Source: Bacteroidia bacterium (GTDB lineage Bacteria; Bacteroidota; Bacteroidia; Chitinophagales; Chitinophagaceae). From it: 64,000 nt of DNA. Both the position numbers and the translations under genes were made by a program. Positions 14,303 through 64,000 of the stretch are shown here, one piece after another (position 1 is the first letter of the stretch; each line of letters starts with the position of its first letter). The notes beneath the pieces are model-generated. The model was not told where the DNA came from. It worked only from the letters and a program-made list of their open reading frames with translations, and did no database searches. The DNA lies in contig JAUHYD010000016.1 of the NCBI GenBank assembly GCA_030426665.1, positions 1-64,000 on the forward strand. Reading direction: 5' to 3'.

Positions 14303-14397
14303 GGTAGCATGTAATTGGTACGCAATTAGTGCTTACTCCGTGTTATTCATCATGTAGTTTAAATTTATCAAAAATCAATACAAAAATCAATACAATA

Positions 14398-16122
14398 ATG
14401 GTAAAATATACTAAATGCTTAGTTATTGTGGTATTGTCTTTTCTGGCGCTTCGCCCAGCTCGGTCACAATCTTTTAGTTGGGTACATTCAATTGGAGAAC
14501 CGATGTGTAGTGATACTTACACTGCTAATGGAATTAATATCGGGGGGAGCGGTAATATTTATGTAACTGGTGAGTATGCATGTACCGCAGATTTTGACCC
14601 GGGGTCTGGTGTTTTGCTGTTACCCAATTCGGGGTCAAGAAATATATATGTTCAGAAACTTACACCTTCTGGTGCGTTGATTTGGGCAAAGGGTATAGAA
14701 GGTACACCCTCTTCTTTGATGGCATCGTTCGCCACAACTGTTGATGAATTAGACAATGTATATATTGCTGGAAGGTTCAATGGTACAGTTGATTTTGATC
14801 CAGGAATTGGTGTAGATAGTTATACTTCACCTTCATTGATGCCAAGTAGTTTTGTTCTGAAGCTTAACTCGCTAGGTGAACTAGTATGGGTGAAGGTTTT
14901 TCAAAGTAACGATACAAGCAGTATTATTGCGTCAAGTATTAGAGTTGATAGCAATCATAACCTATATCTTGCTGGTGAGTTTACCGGAACTTCTGACTTT
15001 AACCCTGATGCAATTGCAGTTGATACAATAACCAGTTTGGGCTCGACTGATATTTTTATACTGAAACTTACTTCCATTGGTGACTTCGTTTGGGTAAATC
15101 ATGTTGGGTCATCTGGTCAGGAGATAGTCCCACAGTTGGCGTTAGACGGTATCGGTGGGATATACTTTTCGGGAGGATTCTCTGGCAACCTAGATATTAT
15201 TTCCGGCACAGATACAACTGCCTTTTATTGTAGCGGACCCTTTGATGTTCTTTTGTCAAAGATTGATACGTCTGGTAATTTTGGTTGGGTGAAGCAAATT
15301 AAGGCAATTGGTTCTGCTTCGAGCTTGCAGGTATTAAGCATCGAAATGGATGCTACCAATCACATTCTGATGGCGGGACAACTTATTGGCTCAGCTGACT
15401 TCGACCCTACAGCGTCGACAGCTTTAGTGACTGCGACCAATTCTGGCTTCACCGTGAAGTTTGATAGTAGTGGTAGTTTTTCATGGGTCAGGAATGTCGA
15501 TGGAAACTCAATTGCTATTGCTGTTGGTGCAGACGCAATGGGACATGTTTATACTCTTGGTACATATGGACAGATTCCAAATGATTTCGACCCTGGGTCA
15601 GAAGTCTATAGTTTGCCAATTATTTCACCAACTGGCTTTAATTTATACGTACAATGTTTGGATTCTGGAGGAGACTTTCTTTGGGCTGGAGGGATCCCTG
15701 CTTCGGATCAGGTAAATGTAAGGAGTGCAGCAGTTACTGAAATCGGCGATTTGTATTTTTCGGGATACTTTATAGGCAGTGCTGATTTTGACCCTGGGGT
15801 GGGAATAAGCAATCTTGCCACACCAAGCTCGTCTGATGTTTATGGGTTTGTTGAAAAGCTGAATCATGATGCAGTAGAAGTAACTCAGTTTAATACTGAT
15901 GAAGTGATTCAAGTGTACCCTAACCCTGTTTTAAACACTTTAAATATTAATAGTGGCTACATGGAGAAAGCGTTGGTAGTACGCCTTTTAGATCTGTTAG
16001 GTAGAGAAAGAATTGTAAGCAATCAAAAATGTATTGATGTTTCAACTTTGGAGCCTGGTATCTATATACTTCGCATAGAGGTTGGAGATAAACATTATAC
16101 CGGGAGAATGGTAAAGAGTTAG
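14398..16122 (+). CDS. SBBP-type propeller protein with T9SS type A sorting domain
   Basis: The 574-residue product starts at the ATG at 14398, where a signal peptide begins (MVKYTKCLVIVVLSFLALRP, cleaved around ARSQ). An earlier in-frame ATG at 14329 lacks a signal directly after it. The body has about six repeats of ~60-80 residues centred on DFDPG-type loops (ADFDPGSG, VDFDPGIG, SDFNPD, ADFDPT, NDFDPGSE, ADFDPGVG), each followed by strands such as VLKLNSLGELVWVK. This is the SBBP/beta-propeller pattern of secreted Bacteroidota proteins. The C-terminus is a T9SS sorting domain (IQVYPNPVLNTLNIN to GRMVKS). The acidic DxDPG loops could bind a metal ion, which is inference. The substrate is unknown. 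Confidence 0.85.
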   Translation: MVKYTKCLVIVVLSFLALRPARSQSFSWVHSIGEPMCSDTYTANGINIGGSGNIYVTGEYACTADFDPGSGVLLLPNSGSRNIYVQKLTPSGALIWAKGIEGTPSSLMASFATTVDELDNVYIAGRFNGTVDFDPGIGVDSYTSPSLMPSSFVLKLNSLGELVWVKVFQSNDTSSIIASSIRVDSNHNLYLAGEFTGTSDFNPDAIAVDTITSLGSTDIFILKLTSIGDFVWVNHVGSSGQEIVPQLALDGIGGIYFSGGFSGNLDIISGTDTTAFYCSGPFDVLLSKIDTSGNFGWVKQIKAIGSASSLQVLSIEMDATNHILMAGQLIGSADFDPTASTALVTATNSGFTVKFDSSGSFSWVRNVDGNSIAIAVGADAMGHVYTLGTYGQIPNDFDPGSEVYSLPIISPTGFNLYVQCLDSGGDFLWAGGIPASDQVNVRSAAVTEIGDLYFSGYFIGSADFDPGVGISNLATPSSSDVYGFVEKLNHDAVEVTQFNTDEVIQVYPNPVLNTLNINSGYMEKALVVRLLDLLGRERIVSNQKCIDVSTLEPGIYILRIEVGDKHYTGRMVKS

Positions 16123-18534: not shown

Positions 18535-18565
18535 TAGAGGGAGGGTGGGTGGTGCATTTTGCGAT

Positions 18566-18718
18566 GTCGACGAAAGGAGACGTTTTTTACAAGTGTTGTG
18601 TATTGGTTCCTTCCTTCGTCAGGATGACAAGCAAGTTGTGAGCGGTGGTTTGTGTCTCTTGTTTGTCATGTCGACGATAGGAGACATCTGTTACTCGTGT
18701 TGTGTGTTAGTTCCTGCC
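18566..18718 (+). repeat. ~104-bp tandem repeat, left block
   Basis: About one and a half copies of a ~104-bp unit marked by GTCGACGA at 18566 and 18670. Each unit includes the inverted repeat ATGTCG...CGACAT (or AGACAT) and a second partial palindrome between ATGACAAGC and its near-complement TTGTTTGTCAT. The block ends at TTCCTGCC near 18718, where similarity stops. The stretch 18719-18791 holds nothing I recognise. Confidence 0.8.
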
Positions 18719-18791
18719 AGTCGTAAGTGTGAAACGTGTTTTGATGTGATAAAGGGTAACATAGTAACTGGAAGTATTTAATTTATTATAG

Positions 18792-19100
18792 TTACCAGTT
18801 TTCATTCAAAAAGTTCCAATCAGGGTTTACGCTGTTTATTAATGCTTCCTTTTTTTCTCTGCGCCACCTTTTTAGTTCCTTTTCTCGTGCAATTGCATTT
18901 GTAACATATTGGAAGTGTTCCATGTACAACAAGTAGTAGCAATTGTATTTTCCTGCAAAAGTTTTCTTTTCACCAAAGGCGTCAGCTTTATGCTGAGCCA
19001 CCCTTTTTTCTACAGAATTTGTTACACCAATATACAGAACAGTTTTCTGGTAGTTTGTTAGGATGTACACAAAGTAGTTGTGTGTTCCCAAATGTTTCAT
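18792..19100 (-). CDS. Small GIY-YIG endonuclease-family protein
   Basis: The ~102-residue protein matches a free-standing GIY-YIG domain (UPF0213/YhbQ-like): YFVYIL near the N-terminus, LYIGVTN for the second half of the signature, an Arg after it (SVEKRVAQHK), and a conserved Glu in REKELKRWRREKK. I prefer the ATG at 19100 because MKHLGTHNYFVYILTN fits the family start. An in-frame ATG at 19151 would add 17 residues. The gene sits inside a tandem-repeat array and runs opposite to the arbitrary repeat orientation. GIY-YIG proteins of this size are presumed nucleases of unknown target. Its placement suggests a link with the repeats, which is inference. Confidence 0.85.
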   Translation of the reverse strand: MKHLGTHNYFVYILTNYQKTVLYIGVTNSVEKRVAQHKADAFGEKKTFAGKYNCYYLLYMEHFQYVTNAIAREKELKRWRREKKEALINSVNPDWNFLNENW

Positions 19101-19154
19101 GTACACTAAAGTAATAAAGTGTGTGCTGCGAGCAAAGTCCGAATTCTTCAATTA

Positions 19155-19497
19155 GACAATAAGAGACATCCGTTACTCGTGCTTTGTGTTAGTTCTTTTC
19201 TTCGTCAGGATGACAAGCAGGTTGTGACGAGTGGGTAGTGTCTCTAGTTTGTCATGTCGACGATAGGCGACATCTGTTACTCGTGCTCTGTGTTAGTTCC
19301 TTCCTGCCGTCAGGATGACAAGCAGGTTGTGACAAGTGGGTTGTGTCTCTTGTTTGTCATGTCGACGAAAGGCGACATCTTTTTCTCGTGTTGTATGGTA
19401 GTTTCTTCCTTCGTTAGGATGACAAGCAGGTTGTGAGAGGTGGGTTGTGACTCTTGTTTGTCATGTCGACGATAGGAGACATCTGCTACTCGTATTT
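19155..19497 (+). repeat. ~104-bp tandem repeat, right block
   Basis: About three and a third copies of the same unit as in 18566-18718, marked by GTCGACGA at 19256, 19361 and 19465 (spacings 105 and 104). The block resumes just after the GIY-YIG start region, within a unit (GAGACATC at about 19164). The orientation matches the left block. It ends 8 bases before the next stop codon. No gene is supported inside it. Confidence 0.8.
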
Positions 19498-62904: not shown

Positions 62905-64000
62905 GTGATAGAAGGTTTTACGTGATAAAGGTCTTTATAGGTGACGAGATTGGCAAATCGGGTTTTTATGATAGTCCGTTTTTTGACTTATCATAGACTG
63001 ATGTGTGTCTATGGTAAAAGTCCCTTCCTCCATGGCGGACACAGTAAGGGGAGGTGAAAGCCCCTCCCTTAAGGGAAGCGAGGTGTTATGTACCCCTTGT
63101 TTTGACAATTTGGTAATTGGTGTTTTTGGAAAGTTGTTTTTGTTTGAATTTTAATGGCAGGATTGAAGGGTAGGTTAGAGCTTGTTGCAGTGGCCGTGCG
63201 AGGAGATAAATGTAAATGTGTAGGAGTGAGGGAAGCAGAATTTTACCACCCCAGCCACAAAAACCGGTAAACCGGAGTTTTTGTGCCGTCCCCTCCTAAA
63301 AACAGGAGGGGAGTTCCCTTAAGGCGTAAACTTAACAAGTGTAATAGACATTTGTGAGTGGAGGCCCCCACCCGCCACTGCGGACACGGCAAGGGGAGGG
63401 ACGTGTTACGTACGACTCTTGTTGTTGTGTTTTAAGTGTTTGGCAATTAGTGTTGTTTATTGTCTGAACCATGATGGGCAGGGTTAAAGGAATGACAGCA
63501 TTGTGTGCTGTACGGAAGAGGAGGTGTTTATCGGCGTTAATAACGCCGTGCCAAAGCATCCGAGTTACAAACTTGGATGAGTGGGTTATATACTTTTCTC
63601 GAACGTACTTTCTTTTGTTTGCCGATAAGAAAGTACCAAAGAAAAGGCCCCCATTGCCTAACTGCATCTGCCACGGCAAAGGGATGGCTATACGTTGTTG
63701 TTGCAGGGGAATATTTAGCGACATGGTGCTGGTTTTCTGTCTATCTCTTGCTGTTATTGGGCTGTAGTGCAGGGTCAGCCTTTCGGTTTTTCCATTTTGC
63801 GTTTTTGCTTACTGCTACGACCGAAAAAGGCACCATCAGAGGCTGGGCAGTTGTTCCGCTGTCGTCGTTTTTGCCGTCAGAGTACTGCTTCTGTCAGTAA
63901 TGTTTCGTCAATTAGCAATTGACTGCCGTTGTGACGAGTCGGGAGACTTCACCATTCATTTGTTTTAAGTGACTACGGTAATCGGGGTCTTAACAAACGA
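62905..64000. other. Hairpin-rich non-coding region at the window edge
   Basis: No gene is supported; short plus-strand frames at 63471-63767 and 63577-63900 have no family look and overlap each other. Inverted repeats are dense: TATGATA/TATCATA (62967-62995), CATAGAC/GTCTATG (62992-63013), CCCCTCCT/AGGAGGGG (63290-63311), ACTTTCTT/AAGAAAGT (~63608-63635). Two diverged copies of one segment lie at 63035-63123 and 63380-63452 (GCGGACAC at both starts), the first holding an extra ~30 bases. The region may be old mobile-element debris. Confidence 0.5.

Follow-up and report, generated by a model that had tools for sequence, protein, structure and literature searches.

REPs are divided into the GTAG and CGTC superfamilies, and those of the CGTC superfamily (in which the tag is often TGTC) have a stem that begins with AT, occur mostly as head-to-head pairs and include dRS3 of Neisseria and RPE-4 and RPE-6 of Rickettsia (Di Nocera et al. 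2013, PMC3733652). These REPs 'apparently lack a dedicated transposase', and no tyrosine transposase flanked by them was found (Di Nocera et al. 2013, PMC3733652). The hairpins described here, which we located in a 64-kb stretch of Bacteroidia DNA (the window), share with CGTC REPs the [C/T]GTC tag, the AT-starting stem, the short tail, the dispersed distribution and the arrangement mostly in pairs of opposite orientation. Copies that flank the nuclease gene in Proteobacteria are textbook CGTC REPs, CGTCATCCCCGCGAAGGCGGGGATCCA, whereas the Bacteroidota copies differ in having 5-bp outer stems and CT or CC tails. A further difference is that the present hairpins regularly have a GIY-YIG gene beside them as partner, where the 2013 study reports no transposase.

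The REP/RAYT systems (REPtrons and REPINs, with Y1 HUH enzymes of the IS200/IS605 kind) are similar in plan, with a small enzyme gene between oppositely oriented REPs, many non-autonomous REP pairs elsewhere and an enzyme type that goes with the REP type. In the present case, however, the enzyme is of the GIY-YIG rather than the HUH/Y1 type, the tag is [C/T]GTC rather than GTAG, and Y1 genes show no link to the hairpins; the nuclease-hairpin system works like REP/RAYT, yet it is not a member, as it has neither an HUH protein nor a GTAG tag. Free-standing GIY-YIG homing endonucleases (I-TevI and its relatives) have the same catalytic domain and patchy, mobile-looking genes, whereas the window gene is associated with no intron or intein, encodes no separate DNA-binding region (102 aa) and is flanked by hairpins. 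Small GIY-YIG proteins of the UPF0213/COG2827-like kind, Slx1 and the UvrC N-domain share the fold and the active-site residues, but those that have been studied are of housekeeping or unknown function and are not linked to repeats. Our literature search, which did not cover preprints and subscription journals, found no paper tying GIY-YIG proteins to REP, RAYT, dRS3 or CGTC repeats.

Tandem Repeats Finder located a repeat with a period of 104 (3.2 copies, 87% matches) at 19165-19493 of the window, and BLAST with the 104-bp unit revealed matches to the left of the gene at 18579-18681 (86%) and 18683-18718 (92%). The array thus amounts to ~4.6 unit copies, all in the same orientation, confirming the proposal of an earlier sequence-only reading that a GIY-YIG gene splits a ~104-bp tandem array. 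That reading had also placed an inverted repeat, ATGTCG/CGACAT, in every unit. The palindrome is ATGTC...GACAT, with arms of 5 bp enclosing a loop, and CGACAT occurs in some copies only; a second hairpin of opposite orientation (for example, 18606-18629 on the - strand) had been overlooked. Each 104-bp unit consists of two oppositely oriented REP-like hairpins, REP-A on the + strand (TGTCAT-GTC-GACGATAGGA-GAC-ATCT) and REP-B on the - strand (TGTCATCCTGACGAAGGAAGGA). The tag of the window hairpins is TGTC; other phyla have either CGTC or TGTC. The features of the array are as follows.

18560-18585, + strand: REP-A, degenerate copy TGCGATGTCGACGAAAGGAGACGT (pattern with 3 mismatches)
18606-18629, - strand: REP-B, TGTCATCCTGACGAAGGAAGGAAC on the - strand (from sequence)
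18664-18689, + strand: REP-A, TGTCATGTCGACGATAGGAGACATCT (exact pattern match)
18709-18732, - strand: degenerate REP-B, left edge of the gene segment (shuffle p 0.001 for the local alignment)
18792-19100, - strand: GIY-YIG nuclease gene, 102 aa (PF01541, E 1.9e-14; homologue alignment; AlphaFold pLDDT 94)
19148-19170, + strand: degenerate REP-A, right edge of the gene segment (local alignment, 0/1000 shuffles)
19192-19215, - strand: REP-B (from sequence)
19250-19275, + strand: REP-A (exact pattern match)
19296-19320, - strand: REP-B, variant GTTCCTTCCTGCCGTCAGGATGACA on the + strand (read from sequence)
19355-19380, + strand: REP-A (exact pattern match)
19401-19424, - strand: REP-B (from sequence)
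19459-19484, + strand: REP-A (exact pattern match)

The repeat blocks do not stop abruptly beside the gene, as had been supposed, but pass on both sides into the degenerate hairpins at 18709-18732 and 19148-19170, although the portions of these hairpins outside the clear array are not significant alone (p 0.11-0.12). From the degenerate hairpins at both edges we infer that hairpin pairs probably once followed one another along the array, the GIY-YIG gene lying between two of them. With their tag and the AT start of their stem, the window hairpins fit the CGTC superfamily as far as primary sequence can decide. No further such hairpins were found in the rest of the 64-kb window, and an Rfam search of the window gave no match. 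Minor tandem repeats of 12-bp and 17-bp units, apparently ordinary, are present at 14369-14399 and 62905-62937.

The open reading frame within the array encodes a GIY-YIG domain. Its start was assigned to the ATG at 19100 rather than to the TTG given by the ORF finder because homologues start MKTLGTHNYY, and with the stop at 18792 this gives the 102-residue product. Residues Y12, Y23, G25, R33, H37 and E73 are invariant in an alignment of 37 diverse sequences. The conserved Tyr, Tyr, Gly, Arg, His and Glu of the GIY-YIG nuclease superfamily are thus present and the predicted fold is as expected, so that the requirements for membership are met; nuclease activity is inferred, without biochemistry. 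The ratio dN/dS was 0.08 (L140/L141) and 0.04 (L138/L140), which, with the invariant catalytic residues, shows strong purifying selection at the level of the coding sequence. In a fold comparison, the closest solved structures to the AlphaFold model were UPF0213 BH0048 and then Slx1. Slx1 is a nuclease that acts on branched DNA, and the likeness of the model to it fits an enzyme that would work on hairpins or cruciforms.

To assess the association between hairpins and nuclease, loci were picked by protein sequence alone and their flanks were inspected afterwards; the first query alignment (A1) included proteins already known to have hairpins, and the claim is hence limited to this subfamily and does not extend to all GIY-YIG proteins. 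Inverted repeats flanked the gene in 67 of 122 loci, compared with 7 of 262 placements of equal size on other parts of these contigs. The pair of 250-bp bins adjacent to the gene held 109 and 112 hairpins of the form GTCAT-xxY-GA...Rx'x'-AT, whereas bins more than 1 kb away held 0-9 each. A looser motif, [T/C]GTC-AT-xxY...Rx'x'-AT-C[T/C], was found within 500 bp of the gene in 62 of 66 loci (260 hairpins), whereas positions shifted by 2-3 kb gave 10-20 of 61-70 (Fisher p 5e-21). A second, profile-selected Bacteroidota sample had a hairpin in 28/29 loci, and the loose motif was present in 26/27 full-length loci. Of 15 plasmid or chromosome records, drawn from Proteobacteria, Cyanobacteria and Bacteroidota, most also had hairpins beside the gene. 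The taxa represented among the loci include Acidobacteriota, Bifidobacterium, Thermodesulfovibrio, Alphaproteobacteria, Anaerolinea, Kiritimatiellae and Clostridia, and CGTC repeats adjoin the gene in Rhizobium, Neorhizobium, Shinella, Aeromonas, Photobacterium, Sphingobium and Planktothrix; no clear flanking hairpin was seen at the nuclease copies of S. meliloti, R. tumorigenes and Novosphingobium. UvrC-type and other GIY-YIG genes (4/14) and tRNA-linked and other GIY-YIG genes of the source genome (3/11) were near background, and the idea that every GIY-YIG gene is a hairpin partner was rejected.

Two of the taxa listed in the 2013 study (PMC3733652), Azospirillum lipoferum and Neisseria, have a GIY-YIG gene among perfect CGTC repeats, and in Neisseria gonorrhoeae dRS3 hairpins lie on the flanks of the gene. 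One gonococcal locus (L284, NZ_CP119140.1, 1880287-1884532) has a small GIY-YIG gene in a dense dRS3 array; the gene has no feature in the gene table used, which is incomplete, and the record, at 2.17 Mb, is chromosome-sized, though PLSDB labels it a plasmid.

The pairing of the hairpin arms was assessed by collecting [T/C]GTCAT heads within 350 bp of the gene without demanding a stem and seeking an arm within 45 nt. This yielded 553 heads in 129 of 144 loci, of which 370 had their own complementary arm ending in AT, compared with 65.6 expected (maximum 81) when arms were swapped between sites; the nucleotides after the arm were CT in 241 and CC in 93. The norm for CGTC REPs, a stem of 8-9 bp with a 4-5 nt loop and a CCA tail, is matched by the Proteobacterial loci; in the Bacteroidota copies a 5-bp outer stem encloses a longer loop and the tail is CT or CC. 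Taken as isolated single strands of DNA, the Bacteroidota hairpins form only weak folds (-1.9 to -2.4 kcal/mol, z near 0), no better than those of shuffles, whereas the Azospirillum hairpin folds strongly (-9.7 kcal/mol, z -4).

When the nearest stem type was mapped onto a tree of 101 nucleases, a tree that is short and poorly resolved, 39 changes were required; 300 shuffles needed 53.7 on average and never fewer than 49. For the TGC stem alone the number was 6, compared with 14.9 when shuffled (minimum 12), and this stem unites nucleases of Alphaproteobacteria, Chloroflexota, Kryptoniota and Bacteroidota. This comparison shows that, at the resolution of such a tree, stem type tracks nuclease phylogeny. 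Strict stem specificity is unsupported, as orthologues of ~70% identity adjoin different stems (GTC, GCT and CCT).

At the genome level, 198 complete Bacteroidota genomes were searched for the nuclease family (threshold E <= 1e-15), and 100 of them possess it, with as many as 10 copies. The median number of hairpin pattern matches was 14 in genomes with the nuclease versus 2 in those without (p 2e-15), and at least 10 matches were found in 58 of the 100 genomes with it versus 13 of the 98 without. REP number increases with the presence and number of nuclease genes (Spearman 0.57); neither this value nor the p value is corrected for relatedness. Eleven REP-rich genomes scored as nuclease-less were rechecked at E <= 0.001, upon which G238 gave a weak match and ten gave none. 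In these ten (of the 98) the small GIY-YIG gene is absent, Pfam finding only UvrC-like or other long GIY-YIG proteins. An example is G061, a closed 3.9-Mb Bacteroidota genome that has 257 REP pattern matches, arranged as regular nested pairs (+ + - -; e.g. L294-L323), and no small GIY-YIG gene. A perfect link between repeat and gene is therefore rejected, and the hairpins are able to survive, and may even spread, where this enzyme is lacking. The sequence-only reading had held that a repeat widespread without GIY-YIG genes would make the link accidental. This situation obtains in part: REPs would be expected to leave dispersed copies away from the gene, but the ten REP-rich genomes have no small GIY-YIG gene at all and form the chief evidence against a dedicated pairing.

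The block itself is compact, measuring ~370-720 bp from GTC tag to GTC tag in most loci of the canonical REP-gene-REP form. Orthologues of the window gene, at 65-76% nucleotide identity, lie in unrelated contexts; those of G001, G004, G006, G013 and G017, ~67-75% identical to one another, have the element alone in common. The alignment between G001 and G004 is limited to the ~0.5-kb element, comprising the gene segment and terminal hairpins, while G004 and G021 are syntenic across 9.7 kb at 83%. In Azospirillum lipoferum 4B, the gene and two CGTC hairpin pairs lie between sufB and sufC, whereas sufB directly adjoins sufC, without gene or hairpins, in A. ramasamyi, A. oryzae, Azospirillum sp. 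B510 and A. thermophilum. As these four related sites have no hairpins, the A. lipoferum gene and hairpins must have arrived together. Measured against the criterion for homing, that a gene sits at its own recognition site and that this site is present in the empty allele, the window gene does lie between hairpins, but the empty Azospirillum sites have none. Comparison of the window locus with relatives, which had been suggested as a check, left the exact empty site unresolved: G010 and G002 have ORF100-panB in common with the window and neither gene nor hairpins there, but their other flank differs. No target-site duplication could be defined at the loci compared. Mobility, binding and cutting were not observed.

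We consider it likely that the array is a cluster of CGTC-superfamily REPs, TGTC-tagged here, and that the inner GIY-YIG gene encodes their dedicated enzyme, carried as a compact REP-gene-REP block; recognition, cutting and mobilisation are inferred. The suggestion of a single unit of nuclease and repeat, modelled on REPs with their transposases, draws support from the constant association across many phyla, the covarying arms, the stem types that follow the nuclease tree, the genome-level correlation, the purifying selection and the presence of the block in unrelated contexts, all of which the comparisons show directly. We conclude that this GIY-YIG subfamily is, on comparative evidence, the dedicated partner of CGTC REPs, with mobilisation again an inference. 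This corrects the 2013 statement without excluding the hairpins from the CGTC superfamily, since the absence of a transposase was an observation and not a structural criterion. Nuclease and hairpins probably constitute a tiny, previously unlinked kind of bacterial mobile or repeat-spreading element. The protein would recognise the hairpin, extruded or single-stranded, through the GTC-AT tag and the stem (there are no binding data) and would then cut at it, and repair or recombination would copy the hairpins, and the gene along with them, into tandem arrays as well as to new sites; lone hairpin pairs in other parts of the genome would be non-autonomous copies. GIY-YIG enzymes hydrolyse DNA and are not known to form a covalent strand-transfer intermediate, and for this reason nick- or break-driven, homing-like copying is more likely than RAYT-like single-strand transposition.

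The main rival is that the gene is a homing-like parasite of pre-existing REPs, which would spread otherwise or be relics, and that it cuts them as entry sites and is copied between REP pairs by recombination. The position of the gene between hairpin pairs in both the window and A. lipoferum would be accounted for in this way, as would the bare hairpin pairs elsewhere in the source genome and the REP-rich genomes without the gene, and homing endonucleases typically have GIY-YIG domains. A parasite, however, does not readily explain why REP numbers climb with the presence and number of nuclease genes, and the hairpin-free sufB-sufC sites of four related Azospirillum genomes indicate joint arrival; we regard this explanation as rather unlikely, though it has to be kept in mind. 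It is harder to defend a domesticated role in which the nuclease resolves REP cruciforms or hairpins in the manner of Slx1 or SbcCD and the pairing is kept for repair. The Slx1-like fold and the strong purifying selection agree with such repeat maintenance, but a trans-acting housekeeping enzyme needs no flanking substrate, and the gene is patchy, multicopy and found in unrelated contexts, which makes this reading improbable.

Mobilisation of the hairpins in trans by RAYT/Y1 transposases, with a merely secondary GIY-YIG link, could be entertained given that Y1_Tnp genes occur in 21 of 22 relatives' genomes. At 30 Y1_Tnp loci of these 22 relatives, however, the hairpin excess was absent, and the loose motif was found at 7/23 Y1_Tnp loci versus 8/23 for a control motif; Y1 transposases were rejected as the mobiliser and we see very little room for them, the more so as no tyrosine transposase with CGTC repeats on its flanks had come to light in the 2013 study (PMC3733652) either. 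Chance deserves practically no credence. The hairpins are intergenic and the nuclease family is common in Bacteroidota, so that the gene might simply happen to sit in a REP-rich region, but only background levels are seen at shifted positions of these contigs, at Y1 transposase genes and at GIY-YIG genes of other types, and the flanking-repeat, distance-bin, shifted-position and arm-covariation results refute a fortuitous association.

If the favoured reading, a dedicated enzyme carried between REPs, is extended to its full scope, CGTC REPs with their GIY-YIG gene would be a novel class of minimal autonomous transposable elements, each consisting of a ~100-aa nuclease and two terminal hairpins with hairpin-directed cutting, and would be the long-missing source of the CGTC REPs of Rickettsia (RPE-4/6), Wolbachia, Neisseria (dRS3) and many Bacteroidota and Alphaproteobacteria; we put the chances of this broader proposal at about even. 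CGTC REPs are one of the two large REP superfamilies, and a constant GIY-YIG partner derived from protein searches makes the question of their missing enzyme directly testable. If the enzyme does move the hairpins, a chemistry quite unlike that of HUH transposases has evolved the same lifestyle, and genes annotated as 'GIY-YIG nuclease family protein' or 'excinuclease ABC subunit C' would gain a function; the dRS3-rich intergenic arrays of Neisseria would likewise gain a candidate enzyme.

There are 18 GIY-YIG places in the source genome, which comprises 4.6 Mb in 43 contigs. A search of it for unit copies and neighbouring GIY-YIG genes, as the sequence-only reading had advised, recovered about ten more REP-A/REP-B copies or pairs beyond the window, but none adjoins a GIY-YIG gene. 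Other GIY-YIG genes of this genome carry hairpins of their own type: L007 has TGTCATGGTGAGCCGCGCCGAACCATGG on both flanks in opposite orientations, and contigs C1 and C34 have three and two tandem ~600-bp hairpin-gene-hairpin units, respectively, of stem type TTTGCGAGGAACGAAGCAA. On the right side, the similarity between C1 and C34 stops just past the outer hairpin.

Further GIY-YIG genes of the source genome form a second group, located immediately beside tRNA genes (Asp, Arg, Val and Ala) with tandem duplicated tRNA fragments and without CGTC hairpins, at L001 (C22:131645-132249), L003 (C8:9643), L004/L005 (C13:99195-99784) and L008-L010 (C30:139527-140450); judging from this arrangement, it looks like a separate, putatively tRNA-targeting GIY-YIG element. 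The sole Y1_Tnp match of the source genome, L185 (C31:246970), has a repeat of another kind on its flanks, ACTCGCGCCAGTG / TTTGCAACCGG, which is also found near the C34 GIY-YIG array (L014, around 1960-2060).
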